64,000 nucleotides of DNA from Rodentibacter caecimuris. Its GTDB lineage: Bacteria; Pseudomonadota; Gammaproteobacteria; Enterobacterales; Pasteurellaceae. The DNA lies in the NCBI RefSeq assembly GCF_001019715.1, contig NZ_BBXJ01000001.1:2046001-2110000 (forward strand), in the 5' to 3' direction. Below are positions 16,746 through 30,473 of this stretch, piece after piece. The notes under the pieces were generated by a model. It was given only the letters and a program-made list of their open reading frames with translations, ran no database searches and was not told where the DNA came from. Made by a program: the position numbers and the translations under genes. How positions within the stretch are numbered: the stretch's first letter is position 1; the number at the start of each line of letters is the position of its first letter.

Positions 16746-17627
16746 TTATTGAGTGGATAATAGGACAATATGCCCACGCTTGCCCCCTTTCATCTTTTCA
16801 GCAGGAATAGCCCATAGTTTTTGATTAAAATCAATTTCCGCCCATTCTGCGCTAAGCGATTCTTTGGACGTACCATCGTTAATAATTGCCATTTGATTAA
16901 TAACTTTACTTGCATTGAGCTATTGCTATCCCTTAAATCGGAAAGAAACTCCGGTAATAATTCAGGGCGGATAGTAGGATTGTTTTCGGTGGTGGGCGCA
17001 CTAAAACTTGAGGCAACATTTACGCACTGGTTAAACTCAATCAAGCCACCATTTACGGCAAAATTTAATATCTCATTCAATAACCGAACCACCCTTTGAA
17101 GAGTATCGTTTATGCCACGTTCCTTGAGTGGGGTTAATGTCTCAATCACTAATTTGGGCGTGATAGCGGATATGGGCATTGCGCCCAGCTTTGGGAATAA
17201 GTACTTTTCAAGCCGTCCCCAATTCTTCTCAAGTGTTTTAGCTTGAACTTCATCTGCTTTCTTTTCTTTCCACTTTTCCGCCACGGCAAGTAAGGTATTT
17301 ATTAAGCGTTCCTGCTCCTCTGCGCTTTGCTGTTGCCGGTATTGTTGCGGATCGATATTTTGGTGCAAGCAATGACAAAAATCCGTCTCTAACCTTGCGT
17401 GCTTGCGATAAAGAAACTTCGGGATATTTCCCTACGCCTAATAAAACCCGCTTTCTAGGATTGCTAAAAGGCTGATAGTAATTAAATCGCCATAGTTTCG
17501 CACCAGTTGATTTAATCAATAAATAAAGCCCTTGACCGTCTGATAGCGTGTAGTCTTTGTCTTTAGGCTTGGCTTTATCTATCTCTGTATTTGTGAGCGG
17601 TTTAGTTATACGCAATTTGTTTCGCAT
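16746..17627 (-). pseudogene. Decayed P4-type tyrosine integrase
   Basis: Remnant of a P4-family integrase. It begins MRNKLRITKPLTNTEIDKAK and keeps the N-terminal DUF4102 part (LYLLIKSTGAKLWRF) and the core-binding part. Reading shifts near 17362 (an apparent extra C: LLAP instead of LLAQNIDPQQ) and near 16868 (an apparent missing A after MVRPK). The frame ends after MKGGKRGHIVLLSTQ, before the HxxR and tyrosine boxes, so it cannot recombine DNA. It lies beside the candidate att site at 17783, as the intact integrase lies beside tRNA-Ile2, so it may belong to an older element at the same target. Confidence 0.85.
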
Positions 17628-17782
17628 TGTTGCGTATAACTAAGCATATAACTAAAATCTGTGGCTGTAAACGTATAAACCCGTAAGAAAACGTATGAGA
17701 AAATAAAATGGCGTTGAGGTCAGTATTTATAAGGATTTAGTTTATGAAAACGTAAGAAGAAATAAGAAGAGAAAAGTCCGTT

Positions 17783-17794
17783 TGGTCCCTACCG
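17783..17794. other. Candidate distal attachment site of the satellite
   Basis: TGGTCCCTACCG matches the 3' end of the tRNA-Ile2 gene at 30309-30323 (TGGTCCCCCCTACCG) apart from three missing C residues, in the same orientation. It would be the remote att copy of an element spanning about 17.78-30.31 kb. The match is short and imperfect, so this is a hypothesis. Confidence 0.4.
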
Positions 17795-17851
17795 TCTTCA
17801 ATATTTTTCATTCAAGCCTTTTTCTATCTGCGTTTTCTTAACTTAGCCAAT

Positions 17852-17877
17852 CAGAAAAGGGAACAATCAAGGGAACA
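17852..17877. repeat. Integrase arm-type repeats, left end
   Basis: Two GGGAACA copies (17859 and 17871) with 12-bp spacing. The 15-mer CAGAAAAGGGAACAA (17852-17866) is repeated exactly at 30184-30198 near the other end of the element, where two GGGAACA copies are again 12 bp apart. Confidence 0.65.
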
Positions 17878-18084
17878 TTAAACGAATTTTTTGACCTATT
17901 TGTCATCTTTTGCGGATTATGCTCAAAAATTGATTACAGGGTCAATCTTTAAATTTCGTTTAATCTCGTTTATTGGTTCTTCTTTATTGTTAAATAAATT
18001 TTTATACAAAAAACATGAATGAAACTACTGTATAGAAATTTTCCTTTGCCTTTTCCTGTTTGCCTGTTTTGGGGCTGTCATATT

Positions 18085-18350
18085 TTTTGGTGGGAAAGTG
18101 GGAAAAGGGGAAAAAATAACGTAACGCATTGATTTAATGGGAAAATATAAAAATAAATCTTCCCCCATTTTCCCACCTTCTGGGGAAAAATTCCCCCCTT
18201 TATACTTTCCAATGACAAAAAAAGGGGGAAAGTGGGAAAGCGGGGGAAAAATTAAAGACTATAAATAATGATATAATATATTGATATTATTATATAAATT
18301 ATAGATTGATTATTATATTTTCCCCTTTTCCCACTTTTCCCCCGTTATTT
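18085..18350. other. Candidate replication origin of the satellite
   Basis: Repeated GTGGGAAA-type words in both orientations: 18090, 18098, 18168 (inverted), 18232 and 18326 (inverted), plus G-runs such as GGGGGAAA. The two inner blocks (18224-18250 and 18317-18344) are imperfect inverted repeats flanking about 65 bp of almost pure A/T (18252-18316). This iteron-plus-AT-rich layout is what an origin bound by an initiator-helicase looks like, and it lies beside the DUF927 helicase gene. P4 uses ori and crr iterons in a comparable way. Confidence 0.6.
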
Positions 18351-18418
18351 TTAGTTTGCTGTAAAAATTTTTGATGAGATTAAGAAAAGTGCAATATTAT
18401 GTTAAATTTAGTACTGTA

Positions 18419-18455
18419 TAAAAAAGCGGTTCAATCTTAATTAAACCGCTTTTAT
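18419..18455 (-). terminator. Terminator of the satellite replication operon
   Basis: Stem AAAGCGGTT with AACCGCTTT (within 18421-18453), with T-runs when read on the minus strand, directly after the DUF927 gene stop. Confidence 0.8.
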
Positions 18456-20717
18456 TTATTCTTCTATTGGTAGGGTGATTTTTAATCCCCTTTTGGTTGG
18501 TGTGGTTATGTCTAATGTTGGATAGGTTGATTCATTACGCCATGTTTCCTTGTCTTTTCGCTCCGTTCTGATTAGTCGTTTTTCTTTAAGTAAGGATTCA
18601 ATGATTTTCTTCTCTGGAAATGCCCCCATTTCTAAAATCAGGTTTCTTTTATCCAACATTAAATAGGAATTTTCCCTTGTGTCTTCTTCAAAATAAAAGC
18701 CCACAAATTTTTTACTTACCGGCGTACTAATGATTTTTTTATTTTTTACATGATACAAATCACCTATATTCTGTTGGATAAATCGATCGAGATTTTCAAT
18801 AATCTGCATTTTCTCCTTATTACCCCATCCAAATTCATCCGCCCACAATTTGAAACATCTAAAAATAGTGCATTCTATTTCCTCATCAGTAAAGCCTGTT
18901 ATATGTTTTGAGCATTTTCCAACAGTAACTAAAAGCGCAAAATTTTTTGCTACTCGTCCAATTTGATTGAGTTCTTTATCATCTACTGAAGGGGGCTTTA
19001 TTGCGATCATTTTGTCGATAAACGATCTTTCGTTTTTGTCTTTCTCCATATTGAGAAAATGAATATTTTCCCTAATGAAAGCGATCCATTCTCTACCGGC
19101 TACGCCATAGTATTTACTACTGTTTACCTTGATAAAATCCGCAAATGCTAATGATTTATGATATTCCGTGGTGTTGTCTGGATCATTTGCAAAATGATGG
19201 TAATTATTCAAGCCGGTGAAAGAGATATTAAGCATTCTTACCAATTCCCCCGCTTTGGCTTTAAAATTTTTTTCTCTGAAAATCTCTCTTAATTGGTCTT
19301 CATAGTTCCGCTCACCGTTGCTTAATATCATGGTTCTCCATGTTCTTACTCTTCTATTCTGATCCTTTTCTGCCTGTCCTCTAAGTTTTTCTACCCCTTG
19401 AAACAATTCATAGAAAATACCAGCTCCCACATCTTGGGAAATATTCGTTAATTCATCCATAACCAGCAAACAATCATTTCTTGAGATCGCTTCATTCACT
19501 AATCCCGTTCTTGTTGCGCTCCAGGAACGTTCTAATTCTTTTCCATGCCCGTAAACGCTATTGGCGATATAGCTACACGTTGATTTACCTGATCCACTGT
19601 CGCCGTAAATATGAATGCCAAAATGCGGCGCATTTTCAACCACGCCAACAACCGGCGCCGCTAACGCAAAAAGCAAGGAGAGAATAACAAAATCATTTCC
19701 TTTGGCATATTTCGCCACATTTTCTTGCCATTCTTCCAGCGTACAAGATTTTTTGAATAAATCGGCGTTAATTGGCTGATTTCGTAAAAATAACGGCTGT
19801 TTATTGTCCATTTCCCCTATAATTTCTCCGTTCGGGTAAATGTACGCGCCATTTTTCCAGCCTGAACTTGATACAATGCGCCATTTTGGTGAAGTGATTG
19901 TTTTGGATGAAATATAATTAGCTAGAAATGAATGATTTTTAGTAACATAATTAATTTCTAACCCTTTATTTCTTAAGTTTTTAAAGGTTTCTGCGCTTGC
20001 AATTTCCCCTTGTAAAATGGCTTCCGTGATCTCTTCACCGTTGCCATTAGATTTAAAGCGGATCATTGAGTAATGTAGGTTTCCTTCTTCAATTTCTACG
20101 CCTTGCCCGATAACGTCAAATTTATCAGAAAGCCAATGATAATTTATGCCTTTATCGTTTTCTTCCATCAAGAAAAGCCCTTTTTTTATGCCGTTGTCCG
20201 CATATTTTATTTCTGCTTGTTTAGCCGTTTTTATTATTATTGGCTCTTCTGCGTTTTCTTCTCTTGATAAGGTTTCTTCTATTTTTAGCATTTCCTCATT
20301 TTTTCTTAATCTAACTAAATAATCACGCCCTACATCTTGCAAAATACAATTTTTATCAAACACTTTTATTTCTTTAATTTGTGTTTTTCTTGCTAAATTG
20401 GCATAGATTGCGCTTTTTTGGTTCTCTGTTACATCATCAAGAAAAATAATAGATAAAGCCTGCTGATTTTTTGCAATGTCTAAATCTTTAATTACATCAG
20501 AATCAAGTAAATTTCCACTTAATATAAGCGGGGTTTCGTCTATTGATTGCTGAATAACAGTGCAAAAAATAGCCCACTCTTCGCTATATTTCCATTCTTT
20601 TTTATTGTTGCGATCGGGGTAATTTTTCCAAAAAAAATGAGCTTTATCGCCAGCAATTAAAACATCTTCTAAATTGCCTTTACGATTGACTTCATCAAAA
20701 TGGTTTACTTTAGCCAT
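18456..20717 (-). CDS. DUF927 superfamily helicase/replication protein of the satellite
   Basis: Large protein of 753 residues. The N-terminal third resembles a Toprim-type region (QALSIIFLDDVTENQKSA; about 60-135) and the rest is the DUF927 helicase. Walker A is GDSGSGKST (about 372-380), Walker B is LLVMDE (about 417-422), and an arginine-containing sensor region follows (MILSNGE). DUF927 proteins are the replication ATPases of many integrated elements, doing the job of P4 alpha. TAGGGGGAG overlaps the stop of the upstream gene and provides the ribosome site. It is the last gene of the leftward operon, next to the iteron region. DNA unwinding at that region is inferred. Confidence 0.8.
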   Translation of the reverse strand: MAKVNHFDEVNRKGNLEDVLIAGDKAHFFWKNYPDRNNKKEWKYSEEWAIFCTVIQQSIDETPLILSGNLLDSDVIKDLDIAKNQQALSIIFLDDVTENQKSAIYANLARKTQIKEIKVFDKNCILQDVGRDYLVRLRKNEEMLKIEETLSREENAEEPIIIKTAKQAEIKYADNGIKKGLFLMEENDKGINYHWLSDKFDVIGQGVEIEEGNLHYSMIRFKSNGNGEEITEAILQGEIASAETFKNLRNKGLEINYVTKNHSFLANYISSKTITSPKWRIVSSSGWKNGAYIYPNGEIIGEMDNKQPLFLRNQPINADLFKKSCTLEEWQENVAKYAKGNDFVILSLLFALAAPVVGVVENAPHFGIHIYGDSGSGKSTCSYIANSVYGHGKELERSWSATRTGLVNEAISRNDCLLVMDELTNISQDVGAGIFYELFQGVEKLRGQAEKDQNRRVRTWRTMILSNGERNYEDQLREIFREKNFKAKAGELVRMLNISFTGLNNYHHFANDPDNTTEYHKSLAFADFIKVNSSKYYGVAGREWIAFIRENIHFLNMEKDKNERSFIDKMIAIKPPSVDDKELNQIGRVAKNFALLVTVGKCSKHITGFTDEEIECTIFRCFKLWADEFGWGNKEKMQIIENLDRFIQQNIGDLYHVKNKKIISTPVSKKFVGFYFEEDTRENSYLMLDKRNLILEMGAFPEKKIIESLLKEKRLIRTERKDKETWRNESTYPTLDITTPTKRGLKITLPIEE

Positions 20718-20725
20718 AACTCCCC

Positions 20726-21022
20726 CTAACCTTGATTTCTATTCTTAAAAAACGCGATCACATCTGCCGAGCGGTATTTTTTAGGGGCGTTTTTCTTTGG
20801 TGTGCCTACGCTTGCCGGAAAATTCGGATCGTGGATAAGTGTTTGCATTAAATAGCCATATGAAATTTTGGCATAGTCTGCCACTTGGCGCGCCGTCCAG
20901 ATTTCATCAGGGCTGAATGCTGCCTTGTCGTTTTCAAGCCGGTTTAGGCGTTCGCCATAATCGGCGAGAATGCGTTTCAGGCTTGCCAGCGTTAATTTTG
21001 GTTCTTGTTGCATTTCTTGCAT
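20726..21022 (-). CDS. Small HTH protein, excisionase-like
   Basis: A 98-residue protein. The C-terminal part (DEIWTARQVADYAKISYGYL ... KYRSADVIAFF, about 43-93) has the MerR-like helix-turn-helix pattern of AlpA/excisionase proteins; the N-terminus is a helical heptad region (LKRILADYGERLNRLEND). It lies 17 bp downstream of the second integrase and 8 bp before the helicase gene. It may be a directionality factor for that integrase or a regulator. Confidence 0.6.
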   Translation of the reverse strand: MQEMQQEPKLTLASLKRILADYGERLNRLENDKAAFSPDEIWTARQVADYAKISYGYLMQTLIHDPNFPASVGTPKKNAPKKYRSADVIAFFKNRNQG

Positions 21023-21039
21023 TTTTTATTCCTCAATGA

Positions 21040-22044
21040 TTAGCCCAAAAGGCTGACTACATTTTCCATTTTTGGCGAATAGTAAGTATTCAGTAAAATT
21101 TTAATATCTCGGTGGCCGCTGATTTTTGCCAAGGTCATTACGTCCACTTTTTCCGCAAGACGGGTTAAGGCTTCCCGTCTTGTGTCGTGAAAATGTAAAT
21201 CTGCCTCTGCAAGCCCCGCCCGCTCTTTCAATTTTCTGAAATTTGCATCGAGGTTTTTGGCAGTTAATTGAAAAATGGGTTCTTCTTCTCCAAAACTTAA
21301 ACGTTCCATTGTGTCGAGAATCGCTACGGCTTTTGTTGAAAGCGGAACATTGCGCGGGTGTCCATTTTTACTGGTCGGGATATGTAAAATTCTCGTTTGT
21401 CGGTTGTAATCTTTCCATTTTGCATTGCAAATTTCACCGGCGCGCATGGCGGTTTCAAGGGCGAATAACATCGCCGCCCCCGCACGGCTTAATGCAGTGA
21501 GCGGGGTGCGGTTAAGTGAAAAGCCGGAAACAAATTTCAAGCGTTCGATTTCCTCATGGCTATAACGGCGTGTGCGTGCATGCGGGGTTTTCGGTTTGCG
21601 CACGTTTTTAAGGGGATTTTCTTTTAGGAATTTCCATTCACCGCACGCCATTGTCATTATATGGGAAAGGGTATTCCATTCCCGTAAAACGCTGGCTATG
21701 CTGACTTTAGAAAGGCGTTCATCACGCCATAACCTAAAATCATCTTCCTTTAAATCCACTAAATAAACGCGCCCTAGCGGCATATCCATTAAGCGGAAAA
21801 GGCGCAAGCGTTCCTCACGGTAACTTTTCTTATAGCGGCTTACTTCTTTGATATATTTATCAATCACATCCGCAAAGGTGATGTAAGGGATCCCCGTGTG
21901 GTAAGTGCCATTAATGATTTTTTCCTCTAACGCTTTCGCCCATGCGATAGCCTCTGCTTTAGTGCGGAATTGTTCTGACTTGGAAACCCCTTTACGGCGC
22001 ACTTGTGCGCGCCATCCTTTATTTCTTTTGATAATGGTTGCCAT
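21040..22044 (-). CDS. Second tyrosine recombinase of the satellite
   Basis: Phage-type site-specific integrase of 334 residues with an Arm domain (MATIIKRNKGWRAQVRRKGV), a core-binding domain and a catalytic domain. The visible active site is R in ETAMRAGEICN, HDTRR (HxxR), SGHRD and the nucleophile tyrosine in NTYYSP. It looks intact. It is a different subfamily from the P4-type integrase at the tRNA end and lies in the middle of the element, in the replication operon. It may resolve multimers, invert DNA, or be left from another element. GGGGG precedes the ATG. Confidence 0.85.
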   Translation of the reverse strand: MATIIKRNKGWRAQVRRKGVSKSEQFRTKAEAIAWAKALEEKIINGTYHTGIPYITFADVIDKYIKEVSRYKKSYREERLRLFRLMDMPLGRVYLVDLKEDDFRLWRDERLSKVSIASVLREWNTLSHIMTMACGEWKFLKENPLKNVRKPKTPHARTRRYSHEEIERLKFVSGFSLNRTPLTALSRAGAAMLFALETAMRAGEICNAKWKDYNRQTRILHIPTSKNGHPRNVPLSTKAVAILDTMERLSFGEEEPIFQLTAKNLDANFRKLKERAGLAEADLHFHDTRREALTRLAEKVDVMTLAKISGHRDIKILLNTYYSPKMENVVSLLG

Positions 22045-22052
22045 AAATCCCC

Positions 22053-22250
22053 CTATTTCCGATTTTTACGACGTGCTATACGTTGGGCTTTGCGTTTATT
22101 CTTGACTTTATTCATTCGTCTTTCGTAAAAATTGAGCTGCTCATTTTTAGGAAATTCAAGCCCAAAGAAAGCCTCATTAAATAGCGTGCTATCACTAGCG
22201 AAAAATTCCAATTCTGCGCCATTGGGAAAGTGTAAAGAATAGGTGTTCAT
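22053..22250 (-). CDS. Hypothetical small basic protein
   Basis: A 65-residue protein beginning MNTYSLHFPNGAELEFFASD and ending in a very basic tail (KVKNKRKAQRIARRKNRK). Its ATG overlaps the stop of the preceding gene (ATGA), and it is followed 8 bp later by the second integrase. The family is not recognised. The tail suggests nucleic-acid binding. Confidence 0.6.
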   Translation of the reverse strand: MNTYSLHFPNGAELEFFASDSTLFNEAFFGLEFPKNEQLNFYERRMNKVKNKRKAQRIARRKNRK

Positions 22251-22561
22251 GCTGTTGCTCCTTGTGGCTGTGGTTTTCTTCCGCCCATGATTTTGAATAA
22301 ATCATTAAAGGCTTTTGCGCTGCTGTTTTGTTGTAAAGCGGTGTGGCGTGCATAGGTTACTTTTTCGATATTGCTCACCTTTCCGCCATTTTCTAATTTC
22401 AGCCTTGTTTCTTCGCTTTTTGCCCATTGGCGGGCGGTGGCTTTGTCTGATTCAAAATAGCGGCTTGAAATGAGTTTTTGTCGCTTAATTTGAATTTTCA
22501 CCACGGCATAGTAAGCGGTTTGATTATTTTCATCGGTGAGAGAATAGATATTAATTGCCAT
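22247..22561 (-). CDS. Hypothetical satellite protein
   Basis: A 104-residue protein starting MAINIYSLTDENNQTAYYAVV at 22561, where AAGGGGG is correctly spaced; the frame is open further upstream inside the previous gene. A beta-rich N-terminal half with YYAVVKIQIKRQKLISSRYF resembles small phage accessory proteins, but no function is known. The start overlaps the stop of the upstream gene by 11 bp. Confidence 0.6.
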   Translation of the reverse strand: MAINIYSLTDENNQTAYYAVVKIQIKRQKLISSRYFESDKATARQWAKSEETRLKLENGGKVSNIEKVTYARHTALQQNSSAKAFNDLFKIMGGRKPQPQGATA

Positions 22562-22901
22562 TTTTGCCCCCTTGTTGCGCCTTGCATTGCGCATATTTTT
22601 CAAGCGTTTGTTCGAGTGGGTAACGCCCGTTTTGTGAATAAACATCGCATAGGCGGTTATCTAACCACTTTAAAGCGGGTGTGCCGTTTAGCTCTTTGAT
22701 TAAGGCTAAATAGCAAACGCCAAAAAAGGCGAGGGAATCTGTTAAATCTCGTTCTTCCGGCTGTGTCGGAACGTTGAAATGCGCGGTTAATTCTTCAATC
22801 AATAACAAGGAAGGATTGGTTTTTTTCTCTTGTTCAGTGTTGCGATAAATCAAAGTGCCTTCATGGGTTTGAATTAGTTTTCCGGTGCAAGAATTAGGCA
22901 T
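22551..22901 (-). CDS. Hypothetical satellite protein
   Basis: A 116-residue protein from ATG 22901 (MPNSCTGKLIQTHEGTLIYR), with AAGGGGGGA immediately upstream. The middle is helical and includes SLAFFGVCYLALIKELNG; the end is polar. Not recognised. It overlaps both neighbours, so it is translated from the same polycistronic message as the Icd-like gene and the downstream genes. Confidence 0.6.
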   Translation of the reverse strand: MPNSCTGKLIQTHEGTLIYRNTEQEKKTNPSLLLIEELTAHFNVPTQPEERDLTDSLAFFGVCYLALIKELNGTPALKWLDNRLCDVYSQNGRYPLEQTLEKYAQCKAQQGGKNGN

Positions 22902-23505
22902 AAATCCCCCCTTGTGTAAAAGTGTGGTTAAATTTTGAGGTGTTTTTTTCGGGGATTCTGCCGGCAAGGATAAGCACAAATTCACGGGCTAAAATAGCGC
23001 GGGCTTGTCGCTCGGTTTCGGCATTGATACGGATTTTTTGAATACGATTTGATAAATCGGTACGGCGAATAGCCGCAAAAATGAATTGGGTCATTTGCGT
23101 AACTCCACTGATTAAATTTTCAAGAGTTACCGCGAAAGTTGTCACGCTTTGGCGGTAACGCGCAACGGGGTGACAAACCGTTATCAGTGGTAAACGGCAA
23201 AGGGCGAAACCTTTCCCGCTACGCGTTACCATAGGGCATAGTCTATCAGAAAATAGATCTATGTTGGGGTGTGCGTAAACGCTATGCACAAAAAAACACG
23301 CATAGGAAATAGGCGTGCTGTGCGCCACTGATAAATGATAGTTCGAGTTGTCACGCTCGTTTTTTGGTGCTTTGTTGAAAGCGGATTTAATATAGTTTAA
23401 TTTCGTTTTAACTGTCAAGGCTGAATTTGACAAAATACGGCTTTTTTTGTGCGTTTGATGATAAATACTTGATTTTTGGCTATAATATGCCTGTTCATTT
23501 TTCAT
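22894..23505 (-). CDS. Icd-like (host cell division inhibitor-like) satellite protein
   Basis: Matches by recollection the family annotated as host cell division inhibitor Icd-like proteins, found in P4-like satellites. The diagnostic C-terminal block is TQFIFAAIRRTDLSNRIQKI followed by AETERQARAILAREFVLILAGRIP. The start at 23505 (MKNEQAYYSQKSS) has AAGGA at good spacing and gives 203 residues; a longer frame with TTG at 23601 would be translated through a hairpin leader. In P1, Icd blocks division and is governed by C4 antisense RNA. Whether this protein does so is not shown. Confidence 0.55.
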   Translation of the reverse strand: MKNEQAYYSQKSSIYHQTHKKSRILSNSALTVKTKLNYIKSAFNKAPKNERDNSNYHLSVAHSTPISYACFFVHSVYAHPNIDLFSDRLCPMVTRSGKGFALCRLPLITVCHPVARYRQSVTTFAVTLENLISGVTQMTQFIFAAIRRTDLSNRIQKIRINAETERQARAILAREFVLILAGRIPEKNTSKFNHTFTQGGIYA

Positions 23506-23582
23506 AAATGAATCCTTAGTTATGGTTAGATAATTAGTTGGTTTAGGATTTAAGCCTCCGTTCCCGCGGGGGCTTTTCTTTT
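23481..23582 (+). ncRNA. Candidate antisense RNA over the Icd-like leader
   Basis: On the plus strand a TATAAT box (23481-23486) is followed about 70-95 bases later by a GC-rich stem-loop (AAGCCTCC region, 23550-23574) and TTTTCTTTT. A transcript from about 23493 to 23582 would be about 90 nt and complementary to the start codon, ribosome site and leader of the Icd-like gene. The size and place recall the C4/CI immunity RNAs of P1 and P4, although those are encoded on the same strand as their target. The -35 box is weak. Confidence 0.4.
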
Positions 23583-23603
23583 GGCTGCATTTCGGCGTCA
23601 AGG

Positions 23604-23912
23604 CTAGAAATTGAGCTTGCCTTGTGTATTGCCGGATTCTTTAAGCTGTGCTAAACGTTCCTCATTGGTCATGGGTTTCATCCCCGCCTCTTTCAAAAGT
23701 TCTTTTTCGCTTTTCTCCCAGCCGTTTGCCTCCGGACAATCCACAAAAACCGCGCGGCGAATGTTGGTGATTTGCCCGACAAATTCCGCTTGTAATTGGT
23801 TGCACTGCGGGCAATAAAGGCGCGCACTGGTAACCAGTAAAGAAAGTTTGTTACTGGTGCGAATGCCTACTTTATGCCCGCAAAACGGGCAATAAATTGT
23901 TAATCCGCTCAT
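23604..23912 (-). CDS. Ogr/Delta-like zinc-finger activator
   Basis: A 102-residue protein with a four-cysteine zinc site C8-x2-C11-x22-C34-x2-C37 (IYCPFCGHK ... LYCPQCNQ), the Ogr/Delta pattern. P2 Ogr and P4 Delta activate late promoters of helper and satellite, so this gene links the element to P2-like phages. AAGGGGG precedes the start. It lies between the AlpA gene (9 bp upstream) and the Icd-like region. Confidence 0.75.
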   Translation of the reverse strand: MSGLTIYCPFCGHKVGIRTSNKLSLLVTSARLYCPQCNQLQAEFVGQITNIRRAVFVDCPEANGWEKSEKELLKEAGMKPMTNEERLAQLKESGNTQGKLNF

Positions 23913-23921
23913 CTTGCCCCC

Positions 23922-24137
23922 TTAGTGCGCATTGGGGTTTTCTGCGGTGTGATTTTGCTGCGCTAAATAACGCTCCACGGCTTCAACCGGATAACGGGCC
24001 AAGCGCCCAAATTTAACCGGTTTTGGAAATTTGCCGGCTTTGGATTGTTCCCATAGCCAGCTGCGAGAAACATCGAGCATTCTGCAAAGCGTGGCGGTTG
24101 AATAATAGCGTTGTTGTGAATCGGTGGTTTTTTCCAT
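23922..24137 (-). CDS. alpA: AlpA-family regulator
   Basis: A 71-residue AlpA/Vis-type winged-helix protein: YYSTATLCRMLDVSRSWLWE, GKFPKPVKFGRLARYPVEAV, then a short helix. In P4 the homologue Vis acts as excisionase and repressor; in gram-negative PICIs AlpA is the activator that derepresses the island. The upstream region carries two identical 12-bp palindromes (24230-24262), a likely operator. A second AlpA-like gene lies at 27.8-28.0 kb. Confidence 0.85.
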   Translation of the reverse strand: MEKTTDSQQRYYSTATLCRMLDVSRSWLWEQSKAGKFPKPVKFGRLARYPVEAVERYLAQQNHTAENPNAH

Positions 24138-24229
24138 ACGTTCCCCTCTGATTTGTTGGTGTTGTCAAATAACGTGCTTTTTTGTCTTGTTTGTCGGGGG
24201 GTATGGTAGGGAATGGATTTTTTGAAGAG

Positions 24230-24262
24230 TGGAAATTTCCAAAAATAGTTTGGAAATTTCCA
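24230..24262. promoter_or_regulatory. Paired palindromic operator upstream of alpA
   Basis: Two exact copies of the palindrome TGGAAATTTCCA (24230-24241 and 24251-24262), with centres 21 bp apart, about two helical turns. That is the spacing expected for two dimers bound cooperatively on one face of DNA. The sites lie just after the 24276-25106 gene and about 95 bp upstream of alpA. Confidence 0.7.
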
Positions 24263-24275
24263 AAAAAATGAAAGG

Positions 24276-25106
24276 TTATTTTGCTGTATTAAGCCAGTTT
24301 CTAAGGGTCTCCGGCGTGATGTTAATCTCTATTCCAGCGCTGGCAAATTTTTTGGCTAATTCTCCGTTTAAAAGGCTTCTCGCTTTTTCTGGTTCATCTA
24401 TGCCATAGTGCAATTTGAGTAAGGCTTTAATAAATTCGGCTTGGTTGGTTTGTTTTCGGGTTGAAATTGGGGCTATTGGGGTGACATTCCCTTTTGTTAT
24501 ATTTAGTTTTCCACCTGTATTTATAAAAAAGGTTAATTCATCTTCTAAAATATAAATATCATCGTATTCGATAAATAAGTTTTTTATTCTTTCATCAGAA
24601 AGATAAATTTTAATTTCGTGAAATGGTATTCCATACTTTAATAAAGCTCTAGGATTTTCTAATGTAAATCCAGATAATTTTCTTTTTAGTAGATCTGATT
24701 CAAATGTCGAATATTTAAAGTCTCTAGGGCAAATGCCCAAAAAGCCATTTATTGATATGTTTTTATTTTTCTGATTGTATTCAGGTAAGTGAATCATCTC
24801 TCCTTTGTTAGATTTAATTTTTTCTTCTATCGTTTCTTCGTTACTTTTTATATATAAATAATTACAAACAACAAGGTGCTTATTAAAAGAAAATTGGAAT
24901 GATATATCTTCTTTCTTAAAAATAGGGAAAATAATATTATTTTGAACTGTCAAGGCTTTAATGCAAAATTGAATATTTCCTATGGCAGCATAATGAATTA
25001 AATCCTCTATTGTTACTGGCTCATTAAATTCTCTTGTTAATTTATCCGCTGCTTGTTGCAAGCTATACCATTTTCTCGGCGGTAAAGTGGGTTTATTTTT
25101 TGTCAT
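24276..25106 (-). CDS. Uncharacterised satellite protein with N- and C-terminal HTH-like parts
   Basis: A 276-residue protein, AT-rich and unlike its neighbours in base use. The N-terminus (KWYSLQQAADKLTREFNEPV, then IEDLIHYAAIGNI) and the C-terminus (EFIKALLKLHYG ... ITPETLRNWL) have helix-turn-helix character; the middle is beta-rich. Similar proteins are frequent in Pasteurellaceae prophage-like elements, without known function. It could be the factor that binds the paired operators beside its 3' end. Confidence 0.65.
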   Translation of the reverse strand: MTKNKPTLPPRKWYSLQQAADKLTREFNEPVTIEDLIHYAAIGNIQFCIKALTVQNNIIFPIFKKEDISFQFSFNKHLVVCNYLYIKSNEETIEEKIKSNKGEMIHLPEYNQKNKNISINGFLGICPRDFKYSTFESDLLKRKLSGFTLENPRALLKYGIPFHEIKIYLSDERIKNLFIEYDDIYILEDELTFFINTGGKLNITKGNVTPIAPISTRKQTNQAEFIKALLKLHYGIDEPEKARSLLNGELAKKFASAGIEINITPETLRNWLNTAK

Positions 25107-25130
25107 TTATGATGAATCCTTAAATAAAAA

Positions 25131-25157
25131 GAAAAGCCCGTCAATAGGGCTTTTTAT
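25131..25157 (-). terminator. Terminator of the toxin-antitoxin operon
   Basis: Stem AAAAGCCC / GGGCTTTT (25132-25154) around a short loop, with T-rich flanks, just after the antitoxin stop. Confidence 0.8.
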
Positions 25158-25162
25158 ATGGT

Positions 25163-25555
25163 TTAAATTTCTAATTGTTCAGGGTTGCATTGATAAATTT
25201 TTGCCAGTTTTTCACGGGTCTTTTTTTGTGGTTTGCTTTCTTTGCGTTCAGCTTGAGAAATAGCGGATTGAGTTAATCCGGTGCGTTTTGCTACCTCTGC
25301 TTGCGAAAGATTGCGATAAATGCGCCACGCTGCCAATAGGCTCACGTCTTGATTAAACATGATATTCACTACATCATTAGGAATTAATTCCGCCCCGTCT
25401 TCGGTAGGACCAAGGGGAATATCTTCCCATTCTGCGGAATTTTCATCATCAAAAGGACTTGCTTTCATTAATAAATCTTCATATTCCGCAATAGGTAAAA
25501 TGACAAATTCCGGTCTCCCTTGTGGGTCGTTAATATATCGGTGATTTAGATTCAT
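25163..25555 (-). CDS. XRE-family antitoxin
   Basis: A 130-residue antitoxin. The N-terminal part (FVILPIAEYEDLLMKA) is RelB/Phd-like, the middle is acidic, and a C-terminal helix-turn-helix (LSQAEVAKRTGLTQSAISQAE, about 92-112, read across the turn) should bind the operon's own promoter. It follows the toxin gene by 11 bp. Confidence 0.85.
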   Translation of the reverse strand: MNLNHRYINDPQGRPEFVILPIAEYEDLLMKASPFDDENSAEWEDIPLGPTEDGAELIPNDVVNIMFNQDVSLLAAWRIYRNLSQAEVAKRTGLTQSAISQAERKESKPQKKTREKLAKIYQCNPEQLEI

Positions 25556-25566
25556 TTTGCTTTCTC

Positions 25567-25830
25567 CTAGCTATAAGTGCGTTCACTACGGCGTTTTATG
25601 GCTTGAATGTTGATGATTTTCGGCTCTCCGTTGATAACTTCAAAAATAATACGGTAATTGCCTACCCTTAGCCGCCATTTCCCTTCTTCACCTTTTAATT
25701 TTTTGGTATCTAGCGTCTCATTAGGAAAGGTTTCAAGTGCATTTGCCTTTTCTCTAATCGCTTTTTGATACCTGCTATCTATTTTTAAAAGCTGCCTTAA
25801 CGCGTCTTTTGTCCAGTTTACGCGATTCAT
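25567..25830 (-). CDS. RelE/ParE-superfamily toxin
   Basis: An 87-residue RelE-fold toxin: VNWTKDALRQLLKIDSRYQKA at the start, then GKWRLRVGNYRIIFEV and a basic C-terminus (IKRRSERTY). RelE-type toxins usually cut mRNA at the ribosome. It is the first gene of the pair (toxin before antitoxin, as in higBA). An AAAGG-type site and the promoter at 25862-25889 precede it. It may stabilise the satellite. Confidence 0.85.
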   Translation of the reverse strand: MNRVNWTKDALRQLLKIDSRYQKAIREKANALETFPNETLDTKKLKGEEGKWRLRVGNYRIIFEVINGEPKIINIQAIKRRSERTYS

Positions 25831-25861
25831 GGGGATCCTTTAGGTATAATTTAATGATTAG

Positions 25862-25889
25862 ATTATAAGCTATTTTTAGTTTTCATCAA
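25862..25889 (-). promoter_or_regulatory. Promoter of the toxin-antitoxin operon
   Basis: On the minus strand: TTGATG (25884-25889), a 16-bp spacer and TATAAT (25862-25867), about 32 bp before the toxin start. The antitoxin helix-turn-helix probably represses it. Confidence 0.65.
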
Positions 25890-25904
25890 TAAGAAAATTA
25901 GAAA

Positions 25905-25926
25905 AGTAAAAAGCCCCTTTCGGGGC
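25905..25926 (-). terminator. Terminator of the capsid operon
   Basis: Stem GCCCC-GAAA-GGGGC followed by TTTTTA on the minus strand (25905-25926), directly after the small gene that ends the capsid cluster. Confidence 0.85.
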
Positions 25927-25932
25927 GGTGGG

Positions 25933-26169
25933 TTAATAACTACAAATAAAGGAATGGGCTTGAATTTCGCTTGAAGTGCGGTCAGATATGCGGGTTTGTT
26001 CTGCCATAAGCCTTGAATATTCACGCATAAGCGCATTTCTTTCGCTGGGCTGAATGGCGCCTTGTTTGACTAAACATTGCACGCTGTGATTCAAAAATAG
26101 GTTTGTGGTGTGGAGTAAATCCGCCGCATGCGCTTCAATGGTTTTTCTTCCATTATGCTTGCCCCTCAA
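25933..26169 (-). CDS. Hypothetical small satellite protein after the capsid gene
   Basis: A 78-residue protein with a TTG start at 26169 that overlaps the capsid stop by 17 bp; the true start may be further in. The sequence is helical with HAADLLHTTNLFLNHSVQCL and SERNALMREYSRLMAEQT. Not recognised. It is transcribed with the capsid gene and followed by a strong terminator. An uptake-signal core lies at 25974-25982. Confidence 0.5.
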   Translation of the reverse strand: MRGKHNGRKTIEAHAADLLHTTNLFLNHSVQCLVKQGAIQPSERNALMREYSRLMAEQTRISDRTSSEIQAHSFICSY

Positions 26170-27091
26170 TGCCTTCGATTAAAACCGCATGGCGGTAATT
26201 TTCCAGCAAATAATCAAGCTGTACCGAAAAATAAACATTTAGGCTATCTTCGCGCAGTTCTTGCTTGAAGAATAGGCGTGCCGTGTTTTGTTTTAGGTAA
26301 ATGGCAAGGTTTGAAAACGTGGTAATTAGAATGCAATTTGCCGGAAAGAAAGGCGCATTGATTGCACGCAAGCCCCCGATAAGGTTTTGTGAGGTTAAAA
26401 GCACGCCATTTTGTGCATTAAGCTGTTTTGGCTCAAGCTGAATCAATGTACCGTCTAAAACATTACGCCCGCAAATTGCGATTAAATCGCCACTTTCGCG
26501 AAGTATTGCCGGCAATTTTTCAAGAGCTTTTTTAATAAGTTGGGCGGTTGTTTGCCCGCTTAATTCAACGGCTTGAATCACTTGCGCTTTTTCTTTTAGC
26601 TGTGCATGCCAACCTTTCGCCACATCTTCGCCCAGTGGGTAGGCTTGTGGATCGGAATCTTTTGCACGATGTGTGCCGTGAAAGCCTACCATCGCGAGAT
26701 TTTTCGCAAATTCTCCGCCTAAACGGGCATTAAGGGCTTTTTCAAAATCAATTTCAGTAAAAAGATCCAGTTCGCTATGCAAAAGGCGAACGTCGAGATT
26801 AATTTGGGCGCACTCAAAAGGGGTTACATCTTGCACGATATTGCGCGGTTCTCGGGCGTGCTTGTCGGTGTCTGTGTTGCTGACAATCGGCAAAGAGAGT
26901 GCATAGGCTTTATTTGGCGAATCTTCAACAAATTTTGTGGTGATTAAGCCTAAAAAAGCGTGGTTTTTAATGCCTTGTTTAATGATTTTTTCCACTTTGG
27001 CGTGGTCGTTGAAATGGCTGTATTCTTGCATTTCTACGCCTTCAAGTTCGTTTTTGTAGGCGGTAAATTTTTCTTGAGTGAGTTTTTGCAT
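26153..27091 (-). CDS. P2 gpN-like major capsid protein
   Basis: A 312-residue protein that reads as a P2-family major capsid protein (gpN). Shared features are the TDTDKHAREPRN region followed by FECAQINLDVRL, the GFHGTHRAKDSDPQAYPL block, DVAKGWHAQLKEKA, LIAICGRNVL and the late FPANCILITTFSNLAIY. The classic P4 satellite has no capsid gene of its own and remodels that of its helper, so this is unusual. No portal, terminase or maturation protease gene is present, so these would have to come from a P2-like helper (HP1-type phages are candidates in Haemophilus). Confidence 0.8.
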   Translation of the reverse strand: MQKLTQEKFTAYKNELEGVEMQEYSHFNDHAKVEKIIKQGIKNHAFLGLITTKFVEDSPNKAYALSLPIVSNTDTDKHAREPRNIVQDVTPFECAQINLDVRLLHSELDLFTEIDFEKALNARLGGEFAKNLAMVGFHGTHRAKDSDPQAYPLGEDVAKGWHAQLKEKAQVIQAVELSGQTTAQLIKKALEKLPAILRESGDLIAICGRNVLDGTLIQLEPKQLNAQNGVLLTSQNLIGGLRAINAPFFPANCILITTFSNLAIYLKQNTARLFFKQELREDSLNVYFSVQLDYLLENYRHAVLIEGIEGQA

Positions 27092-27101
27092 ATTGTCATC
27101 C

Positions 27102-27794
27102 TTACATTTCAGTTAATAAACGTTTTAAGCCTTTTTCTTCTTGCTCTTGAAAGCGCTCAACGTGTTTTTGCGTTGGGGTTTTTGGCTTCCAATCGGCAGC
27201 CAGTGCCAGCGGTGGGAGTTTTAATTCTTCCGGCGTGGTTAATTCCACGTTGAATTTTTTGATAATTAGCGCATTAAATTCATCATGACCGTCTTTTTCT
27301 GTTAGTGGGTCATATTCACCGGATTGAACAAATAAGCCCTTAAATAGCGCGATTTTTGCCTTATTCTGCGCCATAAATTCGTCAATCAAGACTTCTGCGG
27401 TGAATCGGTAAATTTGCTTGCGGAAAGTGAGAAAATCTTGTTTGGCGGTGTAAACTTCTTCGCGCTTGTCGTAAAGTTTTTGTTCTAAGTCTTCATTCAA
27501 GGCAGTGAAGAAATCCACACGTGATTTTAATTCTGCTTTTAATTTTTGCGTGGCGCTGTAATCGTCAAGGGTGAGTTCACTTTCTGTCTCAAATTTCGCC
27601 TTGATTTTGGCAATTTCCGTTTCAAATTCATGGCGTACTGCCGCAATCGTGGCGTTATTTTTTGCCTGTTTGCGCTCGAGTGTACTCAATTCATCAGAAA
27701 GGGCGATGAGTGCCGCTTTTTTATCGTTAAATTCGCCTAAAAGTGCGGTCAATTTCGCTTGTTTTTCGGGGTGTTGTAGGGTGAGTTGGATCAT
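27102..27794 (-). CDS. Coiled-coil capsid-associated protein (scaffold or size-determination candidate)
   Basis: A 230-residue, strongly helical and charged protein. Two long heptad stretches occur (about 10-60 and 70-115), followed by a C-terminal domain ending KHVERFQEQEEKGLKRLLTEM over two segments. It lies 10 bp upstream of the capsid gene and its ATG overlaps the stop of the AlpA-like gene. Its size is close to that of the P4 external scaffold Sid, but no sequence match is claimed. An internal scaffold for the satellite's own capsid is the other option. Confidence 0.55.
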   Translation of the reverse strand: MIQLTLQHPEKQAKLTALLGEFNDKKAALIALSDELSTLERKQAKNNATIAAVRHEFETEIAKIKAKFETESELTLDDYSATQKLKAELKSRVDFFTALNEDLEQKLYDKREEVYTAKQDFLTFRKQIYRFTAEVLIDEFMAQNKAKIALFKGLFVQSGEYDPLTEKDGHDEFNALIIKKFNVELTTPEELKLPPLALAADWKPKTPTQKHVERFQEQEEKGLKRLLTEM

Positions 27795-28018
27795 TTTTTA
27801 CCTGCCTGTTTTGCTTTGTTGTTGCGTTGTTCAATGCGTGCGTTCATCCATGCGCGCACTTCACTTTCTAGCCATGCTTTCGCATTGCCGCCTAGATTGA
27901 CGGCTTCGGGGAATTTCCCTAGCCGTGCTTTGTCGTAAATGGTGGAGCGTGAAAGCCCCGTGAGGTTTATCACATCATCCACTCTTAAAAAGCGTTCTTT
28001 TTGTGTGTTGTCCGTCAT
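27791..28018 (-). CDS. Second AlpA-like regulator
   Basis: AlpA/excisionase-type winged-helix protein, 75 residues from ATG 28018 (MTDNTQKERFLRVDDVINLT); the open frame continues up to 28105. The motif GLSRSTIYDKARLGKFPEAV is typical, and it ends in a basic tail. It heads the capsid operon with a 4-bp overlap to the next gene, so it may control capsid expression, separately from the AlpA at 24.0 kb. Confidence 0.8.
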   Translation of the reverse strand: MTDNTQKERFLRVDDVINLTGLSRSTIYDKARLGKFPEAVNLGGNAKAWLESEVRAWMNARIEQRNNKAKQAGKK

Positions 28019-28105
28019 AATTTGCCTTATGGGGTGGTGTCTTGTATCCATTAGCCAACGAGTAAGCGCGGTCAGCCCGTTTTTTGCCTGATTGCCTTGT
28101 TGCAT

Positions 28106-28601
28106 TTTTCACCTAAAAAAATTTGGTGCGCTGTGTGTCCGTGCGTTACGCCTCGGAGTGGTTTTTATTATGGATAAATCAGGCATGGCGCGCATTAAAT
28201 GACAAGTGTTGCGGGGTGTTTCACAAAATCGGCGGAAAAATTAAGGGCAAATTCAACCGCACTTTTTATCAATGCGGGGGACTGTCCAATTTTTGCCGCT
28301 AGAAATTGGACTAAATTAGCATTTTTACGCCTAAATTTTGCGTTTTTCTGCGTTGGTTTGCGTTGATGAACGAATATTTAAAACATCAAGGCGCGCCAGT
28401 ATTGGCAAGGCTTGAAAGGCTTTTAAAATTTGCGTTGAAATCACTACAAAAAGCGTGCCGGCGTGGCGAGGGTTTGCTAGCGATTTTTCGCGCGTGGTTT
28501 TTGTTGAAAAATCGTAGAGAAAATAGGGTTTTAGGTATTGTAGGGATTATAGTTTTGATATAATAAATGCATGTAAAGCCAGTAACGGCAAGGGTTCATC
28601 A
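28106..28601. other. Non-coding stretch upstream of the capsid operon, with a hairpin
   Basis: About 500 bases with no convincing gene. It holds a 9-bp inverted repeat GTCCAATTT / AAATTGGAC (28284-28292 with 28303-28311), an uptake-signal core (28256-28264) and, at the right end, a TATAAT (28559-28564) before the small secreted-protein gene. A packaging (cos) site recognised by a helper phage would be expected somewhere in the element and this is one possible place, but no cos sequence was recognised. Confidence 0.4.
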
Positions 28602-28862
28602 ATGATTAAAAAGGCTTTCACTTTCGCACTTGCAATAGCTATTTCACTCGGTGCGACAAATTCAGCTATAGCACGAGAAAAGAAAAAGAGTAGTGGCATA
28701 ATTAAAAAAGCCGTTGTTGCTTATGTCGCATACAAAGTCTATAAACATTACAAAGACAAGAAAGAGGAACAAAAGGCGAAAAGCAAACAAAAAGAAACCT
28801 ATGTTGAGCCGGTTTATTATGATGAAGACTGCGAAAGTGAAGACGAATGCGAGGAAGAATAA
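28602..28862 (+). CDS. Small exported protein, satellite cargo candidate
   Basis: An 86-residue protein with a clear signal peptide (MIKKAFTFALAIAISLGA, cleavage about after SAIA, residue 24). The mature part has a basic stretch KKKSSGIIKKAVVAYVAYKV, a very basic middle and an acidic C-terminal tail with two cysteines (DEDCESEDECEEE). It is the only plus-strand gene in the element, has its own TATAAT (28559-28564), and lies between the integrase and the capsid operon, where phages often carry lysogen-expressed genes. The function is unknown. Confidence 0.65.
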   Translation: MIKKAFTFALAIAISLGATNSAIAREKKKSSGIIKKAVVAYVAYKVYKHYKDKKEEQKAKSKQKETYVEPVYYDEDCESEDECEEE

Positions 28863-28882
28863 AGGGCGGAACGCTCCGCCCT
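28863..28882. terminator. Stem-loop between convergent small gene and integrase
   Basis: Stem AGGGCGGA / TCCGCCCT (8 bp, 28863-28870 with 28875-28882). There is no U-tract on either side, so it may be a weak or factor-assisted terminator. Confidence 0.55.
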
Positions 28883-28889
28883 GTGACGG

Positions 28890-30113
28890 TTAGGCTTTCA
28901 TCGCCTCTAGCTTACATTGCTCGACATAATCGCCCCACGTTTGCATAATAGCTTGACGTGACTTCCATTTTTTTGATTTATCGTAGGCTTTCCTAACATC
29001 GCTTTTTGTTTCATGGGATAAACACCACTCAACCGCTTCATATGAAAATTGATCCAATTCATGCAAGTAAGTGCTTGCGATACTTCTAAAACCATGCCCC
29101 ACTAATTCCCCTTTAAATCCCAAATCTATTAGGGCTTTATTAACGGTTTGGCTATTCATCGGCTTATTCCATGGTGCTTGATAACCTGTAAAGACAAAAC
29201 GCCTATGCCCGTTAATTTCTTTCATAGTTTCTAAAACTCGCAAAGCTTGACGCGAAAGTGGAACACTATGCGCACGTTTTCCCCCTTTCATGCGTTCCGC
29301 CGGAATATGTAAAACTTTCTCATGCCAATCTACATCACCCCACTCAATATTTACCGCTTCACTAGCCCTTAGAATCGTAAGTAATTGAAATTCGATTAGG
29401 CATTTTGTCCCTATTTTTGAATTAGACGTATTGAGCTTATAAAAAACACGCGGCAGTTCTTCCGGTGGAATAGTTGGCAAATGTTGAGCTATTGGTTTTT
29501 TAAAACGCCTTGAAAGCCTTGCAAATGGGTTATTATTGATAATCCCGTCATCAATTGCATTATCAAAAATCTGTCTAATTGCCGTGCATAATTTATCGCA
29601 AGTATCTGATCCATCAAGAGGCAATAAAGCAGAATCAAATGATTTGATATGAAGATTTTCAATAGGTAAATCATCAAACTTAAATTTATCAAACAAATGT
29701 AACTCAACTCGGCGGTAGGCTTTCTCAATACTTTTTTTCTTTAATTCACCTTTCTGTTCTCGTTTATTACGCCATAAAGCCGCCAATTCGCCAAAAGTTA
29801 TTGATTTTTTTTCATCCTGTAGCCGTTGAATATTTTCTTGCTCTGAAGGATCAATTCCTAGTGCGAGTAAATCGCACCATTTACGCGCTTTTTCACGCGC
29901 TAAAGTTAAAGAAAAATAAGGATAAGCCCCAAAAGATTTTTTTACGCGTTTTTTGTTTATGGGGTGAGTATAAATAAACCGCCAGAATTTAGCCCCGTTT
30001 GGTTTAACCAATAAATAAAGATTATCCCTATCGGCAAATAATTGTTCTTTATCTGTCGGTTTAATGGATTGAATATATGAATCAGTAAATTTTTTTAGAA
30101 AGTTTCTAGCCAT
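28890..30113 (-). CDS. P4-type tyrosine integrase at tRNA-Ile2
   Basis: Intact integrase of 407 residues. It has the N-terminal DUF4102 part (LYLLVKPNGAKFWRFIYTHP), a core-binding domain and a catalytic domain with R249 in LRASEA, HGFR (H338, R341), a later LSH and nucleophile Y377 in KAYDKS. It reads away from the tRNA, with its start 196 bp from the tRNA 3' end; integration into that 3' end is the family habit. Between them lie three GGGAACA-type repeats. It is the same family as the decayed integrase at 16.7-17.6 kb. Confidence 0.93.
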   Translation of the reverse strand: MARNFLKKFTDSYIQSIKPTDKEQLFADRDNLYLLVKPNGAKFWRFIYTHPINKKRVKKSFGAYPYFSLTLAREKARKWCDLLALGIDPSEQENIQRLQDEKKSITFGELAALWRNKREQKGELKKKSIEKAYRRVELHLFDKFKFDDLPIENLHIKSFDSALLPLDGSDTCDKLCTAIRQIFDNAIDDGIINNNPFARLSRRFKKPIAQHLPTIPPEELPRVFYKLNTSNSKIGTKCLIEFQLLTILRASEAVNIEWGDVDWHEKVLHIPAERMKGGKRAHSVPLSRQALRVLETMKEINGHRRFVFTGYQAPWNKPMNSQTVNKALIDLGFKGELVGHGFRSIASTYLHELDQFSYEAVEWCLSHETKSDVRKAYDKSKKWKSRQAIMQTWGDYVEQCKLEAMKA

Positions 30114-30148
30114 CGTTTAAGCCCTAATGAACAAAAGACAACCGCTTT

Positions 30149-30198
30149 TGTTCCCTCGATTTAGCCCCTTTATTAAGAGGGAACAGAAAAGGGAACAA
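30149..30198. repeat. Integrase arm-type repeats, right end
   Basis: TGTTCCC (30149) and two GGGAACA copies (30179 and 30191, 12 bp apart). The 15-mer at 30184-30198 is identical to 17852-17866 at the far end of the element. Confidence 0.65.
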
Positions 30199-30308
30199 GA
30201 AAAGCGAACAATGACAAACACTAACGAACGAAAACAACAAAAGAAAAGTTTTTAATATGCTGTTTTTACTATGTTTTTGACAAAAAAGACGTTATTTGAC
30301 GGGTTAAA

Positions 30309-30385
30309 TGGTCCCCCCTACCGGACTTGAACCAGTGACCAAGCGATTATGAGTCGCCTGCTCTAACCAACTGAGCTAAGGGGGG
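30309..30385 (-). tRNA. tRNA-Ile2(CAU), integration target of the satellite
   Basis: A 77-nt tRNA with CCA encoded. The anticodon loop CTCATAA gives CAU, and the body (GGCGA-CTCATAA-TCGCT, then TGGTC) matches the isoleucine-2 type, whose C34 is changed to lysidine, rather than elongator or initiator methionine tRNAs. Its 3' end faces the integrase and is the likely att core. Confidence 0.9.
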
Positions 30386-30473
30386 AAACGCGGACGATTA
30401 TAGAGAAATAATGACGCTAAGTCTATAAGTAAAAGGATGGTCGCTTGAAAAATAACCATCCTTGCACTTGTAC

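Follow-up and report, generated by a model that had tools for sequence, protein, structure and literature searches.

A P4/PICI-type satellite of Rodentibacter caecimuris with its own P2-family capsid gene and a predicted Sid-like scaffold

RESULTS

Extent and gene content of the island

The DNA analyzed here is a 64,000-nt stretch of the Rodentibacter caecimuris genome (assembly GCF_001019715.1, contig NZ_BBXJ01000001.1, positions 2,046,001 to 2,110,000; "the window", in whose own coordinates positions are given), in which an initial annotation made from the sequence alone had marked a phage satellite carrying a P2-type capsid gene. The satellite island is 12.5 kb long and is integrated at the 3′ end of a tRNA-Met gene. 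Its limits were obtained by comparison with the relative G126, in which the left and right flanks of the island are adjacent, with 7 nt in common, and the left flank lies directly at tRNA-Met. Exact words of at least 11 nt gave no attachment (att) repeat in the window, and the boundary, which is that of the initial annotation, was settled by the empty site instead. Except for an 86-aa open reading frame (ORF), all identified island genes are on the minus strand (Table 1).

The integrase, AlpA, and DUF927 assignments of the initial annotation were confirmed by Pfam, as was the tRNA-adjacent location by the empty site. Its Ogr/Delta zinc finger was recovered by the expected family, although with a score slightly below the cut-off, whereas its "Icd-like" ORF (22894-23601) had no Pfam family at E ≤ 0.01 and contains the C4 antisense RNA within it. 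C4 immunity RNA is a trait of P4. The host, which had been taken for Haemophilus, is Rodentibacter, the nearest named proteins and loci being 95-96% identical. The island also has the traits of phage-inducible chromosomal islands (PICIs), with the same reading direction for integrase, alpA, and primase, a length within the range of about 10-20 kb, and a specific attachment site. Among the relatives, 12 of 17 have att repeats of 11-18 nt at tRNA or tmRNA sites, giving island sizes of 10.1-13.4 kb (the 7-10 nt repeats in L003, L005, L077, L078, and L188 were excluded from these estimates). The genomes of P4 and P2 measure 11.6 kb and 33.6 kb, so that the satellites are about the size of P4 and about one third that of P2.

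Table 1. Features of the satellite island and its attachment site (window coordinates; HTH, helix-turn-helix)
Feature	Position	Strand	Evidence and remarks
Satellite island	17790-30308		Empty site in G126
DUF927 primase/helicase	18456-20717	-	PF06048 E 4.8e-42; PHROG DNA primase E 1.1e-45
Small HTH protein preceding primase	20726-21022	-	PHROG 4996 E 6.6e-11; kept in relatives
C4 antisense RNA (P4-type immunity)	23148-23236	-	RF01695 63.4 bits; found in 7/7 relatives scanned
Ogr/Delta-like zinc finger	23604-23912	-	PF04606 E 3.1e-5, 24.2 bits (Pfam cut-off 26.3)
Second AlpA-like HTH protein	23922-24137	-	PF12728 E 5.6e-9
276-aa ORF, family-specific	24276-25106	-	Related ORFs in most relatives; no Pfam or PADLOC match
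HTH antitoxin of ParE pair	25163-25555	-	PF01381 E 6.1e-11
ParE-family toxin of toxin-antitoxin pair (cargo)	25567-25830	-	PF05016 E 1.1e-11
Small ORF overlapping capsid gene 3′ end	25933-26169	-	31-94% identity in L003-L008, L083, L084
P2-family major capsid protein	26153-27091	-	PF05125 E 3.9e-48; PHROG major head protein E 1.4e-51
Partner, coiled-coil protein, predicted Sid-like scaffold	27102-27794	-	
AlpA regulator, first gene of late operon	27791-28105	-	PF05930 E 3.3e-18
Predicted Ogr/Delta-type late-activator site, TGT-N13-ACA	28207-28225		Sole such site in island
Cos-like region, P2-type	28339-28567 (core 28457-28471)		Noncoding
86-aa ORF	28602-28862	+	63-67% identity in L003-L006, L008; 65% in L076 (G102); kept in five relatives and G102
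P4-type tyrosine integrase	28890-30113	-	PF00589 E 1.1e-22; PF13356 E 6.4e-19; 31% to P4 int
tRNA-Met	30309-30385		

Phage genes missing from the island

Window positions 17701-30400 were searched by tblastn (E ≤ 0.1) with 53 proteins, comprising 46 head, packaging, and tail proteins of P2, PHL101, and HP1, the P2 Ogr protein, and six P4 proteins; the set was without the P2 tail genes E and G and the lysis genes. The matches were confined to capsid protein N, the P4-type integrase, and short Ogr/Delta stretches. Thus, in agreement with the initial annotation, no portal, terminase, scaffold/protease, or tail gene of P2 or HP1 type was found in the island, capsid protein N being the only match among the 46 phage proteins. 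The P4 proteins Sid, Psu, epsilon, and alpha had no match in this search and delta matched over a 16-aa stretch only (E 0.042), while Pfam scans of 18 island ORFs returned no HK97-type portal, terminase, or protease. Capsid-forming PICIs (cf-PICIs) have genes for both head and packaging functions, a set of which the island shows only the capsid gene. It also lacks the full P4-like gene set of int, psu, delta, sid, alpA, epsilon, and alpha (PMC8628076).

The capsid gene and its partner

The capsid gene annotated initially as gpN-like is a genuine gpN homologue, with a PF05125 match above the cut-off and the gpN fold, and it is under strong purifying selection. In a tree of 38 capsid proteins, 17 P2-type satellite proteins formed one clade (100/100) and four HP1-type satellite proteins a separate clade (97/96) adjoining HP1; long branches, foremost that of G115, were flagged by the program, and alignment A2 is without P0038 and P0043. 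The tree derives the gene from P2-type phage genes, and since the P2-type and HP1-type satellite proteins form separate clades, it was captured at least twice. Identity among the satellite proteins falls to 27%, compared with at least 43% among the P2-type phages compared, and the window protein is 27% identical to that of the P2-like prophage resident in the same genome. A search of viral contigs with the capsid alignment returned 80 loci.

The P2 sir mutations that escape Sid all lie within gpN residues 184-221, and Sid binds hexamers only (PMC7552001). The corresponding segment is 20-25 aa long in all 17 P2-type satellite proteins; among the phage proteins, from which HP1 and the truncated L063 were left out, the 15 P2-type ones have 32-40 aa. 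In the HP1-type it measures 32 aa in four satellite proteins, nearly as in HP1 (33). Because the 17 proteins are one clade, the short segment may represent a single event, possibly followed by further trimming in the branch of the window. It can be read in two ways, as a capsid protein tuned to small shells or as a pentamer filler, pentamers being untouched by Sid. The gpN contact residues 64 and 102 vary among phages too and do not discriminate between a shell of the satellite's own protein and a mixed one.

The partner encoded beside the capsid gene is a protein of 230 aa. Its AlphaFold2 (AF2) model has two long helices and a small C-terminal part. P4 Sid, one of the two proteins with which the initial annotation had suggested comparing the partner, was the best structural match found; profile comparison of the sequences gave no support for Sid. 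Against gpO, profile comparison yielded a probability of 2.8%, the match being limited to roughly the last 100 residues of gpO, and a gpO-type internal scaffold is disfavored on this basis. No match to the partner was found among 50,697 phage records. In an order-wide sample of 394 genomes, the seven clear matches were all from Pasteurellaceae, with two marginal ones outside this family (E 5e-4 and 8e-4); P4 Sid matched in 10 of the 394 genomes, none of them Pasteurellaceae. The partner is a predicted Sid-like external scaffold.

A satellite family in Pasteurellaceae

When 140 Pasteurellaceae genomes were searched for the partner, the single protein recovered 18 genomes and the alignment 21. 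Overall, the partner is present in 22 genomes from 15 of 43 genera, in 23 satellites (G102 has two). In 15 of these satellites a P2-type capsid gene lies directly behind the partner. The other eight have an HP1-type partner, which is accompanied by an HP1-type capsid gene in six (the one in G130 sits on another contig and was taken as part of the same element). No capsid gene was seen in G049 and G090, and the latter has a gpO-like protease gene instead (L188:10065-10709; 48% identical to HP1 gpO over residues 2-181). Capsid pieces without a partner, namely the decayed copies in G062 and G064 and a locus in G123 (L007), were not counted.

The decayed copies (L084 in G062 and L083 in G064) retain a capsid gene fragment and are also at the tRNA-Met/glyS site. 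In G123 (L007:4863-7376), capsid residues 33-312 follow in frame after about 560 residues of unrelated protein, with no partner seen; this fusion is apparently a scar left in the island by recombination, and a VgrG-like fragment, named by eye, lies at the contig end. In G102 (L075/L076), an HP1-type and a P2-type satellite stand in tandem at one tRNA-Ser.

Sequence links to helper phages

A P2-like prophage lies elsewhere in this genome, at about 536.2-558.3 kb, and Q, P, O, N, M, L, X, R, S, T, V, W, J, I, part of H, FI, FII, U, and D were all matched in it. Aligned over 236 columns, the cos-like region of the island shares 72% identity with the gap preceding the portal gene of this prophage, which is the place of cos in P2, and its core aligns with P2 cos, P4 cos, and the PHL101 gap. 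Between int and alpA, the P2 core was found with up to two edits in all 15 P2-type satellites and in none of the eight HP1-type ones (12/15 P2-type with one substitution allowed). Conversely, the HP1 cos junction was found in all eight HP1-type satellites (E 3e-26 to 1.4e-11) and in none of the 15 P2-type ones (best E 0.08). When the resident prophage gap was used in plain blastn, the types were not split cleanly, L071 giving E 0.033 and three HP1-type loci E 0.009 (a 21-nt match). The two HP1-type satellites in which no capsid gene was seen conform to the rule as well, so cos follows the type of the partner too.

The TGT-N13-ACA motif occurs within 240 bp before alpA in 22 of the 23 satellites; the exception is L211, which has an additional gene upstream of alpA. 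The motif has the layout of three of the four PHL101 stretches examined that are annotated "possible activator protein." Other TGT/ACA spacings from 6 to 21 occurred 0-2 times each in 19 regions, and the background was 49 TGT-N13-ACA sites in 330,612 bases, pre-alpA sites included. The extra gene of L211 (G139; L211:11297-11989), between int and alpA, resembles a tail-completion protein by eye.

A P2-type large terminase (E below 1e-190; terminase types were split by score, a division of our own) was found in 6 of the 15 genomes with P2-type satellites, and no terminase match was found in seven. Such genomes are expected because a mobile element can outlive its helper.

Beside the P2-like prophage of the R. 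caecimuris genome, a stretch at G000:C1:519606-535507 (L011, L009) has, by eye, an apparent HK97-type head and packaging gene set, together with an Icd-like ORF, a split P4-alpha-like primase, and an integrase; no tail genes were matched. It is possibly a classic cf-PICI.

DISCUSSION

A satellite with its own capsid gene

The sequence marks the element as a genuine satellite that encodes a capsid protein and is strongly linked to P2-like helpers. The descent of the capsid gene from P2-type phage genes is what a degraded P2-like prophage would also show. However, that origin is rejected as highly improbable, since the island has no P2/HP1-type portal, terminase, or tail genes and instead is a whole, syntenic element known from 15 genera, with its own capsid clade, a replication gene, an immunity RNA, and clean tRNA junctions; the seven genomes without a terminase match argue in the same direction. 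The initial call of a satellite rather than a prophage remnant was therefore well founded.

We tentatively prefer, at somewhat below even odds, a P4/PICI-type satellite that builds a small head from its own P2-family capsid protein and the predicted Sid-like scaffold, which a P2-like helper then fills and provides with a tail. Late in helper growth, an Ogr/Delta-type activator, either that of the island or that of the helper, would switch on the alpA-partner-capsid operon. The partner would cage capsid hexamers as P4 Sid does and steer assembly to T=4, the satellite sizes being consistent with such heads holding a single genome copy. The helper would fill the small head from the cos-like site of the satellite, and its gpO, portal, terminase, completion, and tail proteins would complete the particle. 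Since the scaffold-capsid contact is encoded within one operon, a satellite with its own capsid protein would be out of reach of helper escape (sir) mutations. More tentatively still, the Pasteurellaceae satellites may run a self-contained small-head cassette, in which a sir-trimmed capsid protein and a Sid-type cage share one late operon, helper escape by capsid mutation is blocked, and the capsid gene has been captured at least twice (P2-type and HP1-type), each time with the matching cos.

A less likely arrangement, which nevertheless fits almost as well, is a mixed shell in which the satellite protein forms the pentamers and helper gpN forms the hexamers, caged by the partner into small T=4 heads. 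This has a proven precedent in Ccm of SaPIbov5, which is 24% identical to the helper capsid protein and forms pentamers (PMC8569155), and the window capsid is similarly distant from that of the resident helper. With Sid restricted to hexamers and its escapes mapped to gpN 184-221 (PMC7552001), a pentamer-only protein could afford the loss in this segment. However, the satellite capsids have diverged further than those of the P2-type phages, unlike a protein bound to a helper interface, and SaPIbov5, as described in PMC8569155, uses no dedicated partner. Accordingly, of the initial proposal that the capsid is built from the satellite's own protein and the rest is borrowed, the second part stands, as the rest of the virion would have to be supplied by a helper, whereas a satellite-only shell does not follow.

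It is unlikely, more so than a mixed shell, that the capsid gene is unneeded for transfer, with the partner alone remodeling helper heads like Sid and the capsid protein acting as an interference factor or accessory. The two HP1-type satellites with a partner and no capsid gene, one with a gpO-like protease gene instead, would fit this explanation, as would EcCICFT073, in which deletion of the capsid gene left transfer and interference unchanged (PMC6092414). On the other hand, in all 15 P2-type satellites found via the partner the capsid gene is retained immediately behind the partner gene, and it is under strong purifying selection. We therefore place assembly of an own shell ahead of the mixed shell, and the latter ahead of a dispensable capsid gene.

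Relation to known satellites

A lone capsid gene in Gram-negative PICIs is not new, and the novelty claimed in the initial annotation was overstated. These islands, including those of Pasteurellaceae, were reported in 2018, with capsid genes in some (PMC6092414). Of 29 reference PICIs, 21 have a capsid gene, as do most of the Pasteurellaceae ones (PMC10111431). The present island shares with them the tRNA-site integrase, alpA, one-way transcription, primase, size of 10-20 kb, and the frequent lone capsid gene (PMC6092414, PMC10111431, PMC6893505). PmCI172 also encodes a capsid-like protein and forms small heads. The helper of PmCI172 is Mu-like (PMC6092414); the present family has a P2- or HP1-type cos, an Ogr-type site, and a predicted Sid-like partner. 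PmCI172 was reviewed as lacking a Sid- or CpmAB-like gene, with the capsid-like protein speculated to act in the size change (PMC6893505).

With satellite P4, the island has in common the P2-type cos core, the Ogr/Delta-like finger and site, the C4 RNA, the size, and the predicted Sid-like external scaffold; it differs in the lack of sequence matches to sid, psu, epsilon, and alpha, its own capsid gene, and the late order alpA-partner-capsid. Like SaPIbov5, it encodes a homologue of a helper capsid protein and would be packaged from cos; Ccm has been shown to be capable of supplying a T=4 shell with its pentamers (PMC8569155, PMC5052747). However, SaPIbov5 has a Gram-positive host and an unrelated helper, and Ccm is pentamer-only and forms no capsids alone (PMC8569155). 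An own capsid protein is likewise encoded by cf-PICIs (PMC11389934), but the island has a lone capsid gene and would need the portal and terminase of a helper.

Within the literature searched, whose coverage was partial and does not establish absence in print, there was no report of a P2/HP1-type cos, an Ogr-type site, or a Sid-like partner in these satellites. Lone capsid genes of Gram-negative PICIs have been on record since 2018 with no function assigned, and the Pasteurellaceae PICI seen to make small heads had no recognized size-determining protein (PMC6893505, PMC6092414). The family described here offers a testable pair, the capsid protein and its predicted Sid-like partner, together with a helper type named by the cos site and a late switch. 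It also suggests why a satellite might keep a shell protein of its own, namely to secure the scaffold-capsid contact against the mutations by which helper phages escape.

Additional observations

A broken integrase at 16790-17627, outside the island, marks an earlier occupant of the tRNA-Met site; it is also present in G126, directly at the tRNA. The island has a second intact tyrosine recombinase (21040-22044); of the relatives compared, only L003 and L074 have one at this place. For known defense systems, the cargo gave only generic HTH matches, to the antitoxin. Just upstream of C4, a match to the isrK Hfq-binding RNA family was found in four of the seven satellites scanned (L070, L074, L078, and L082).
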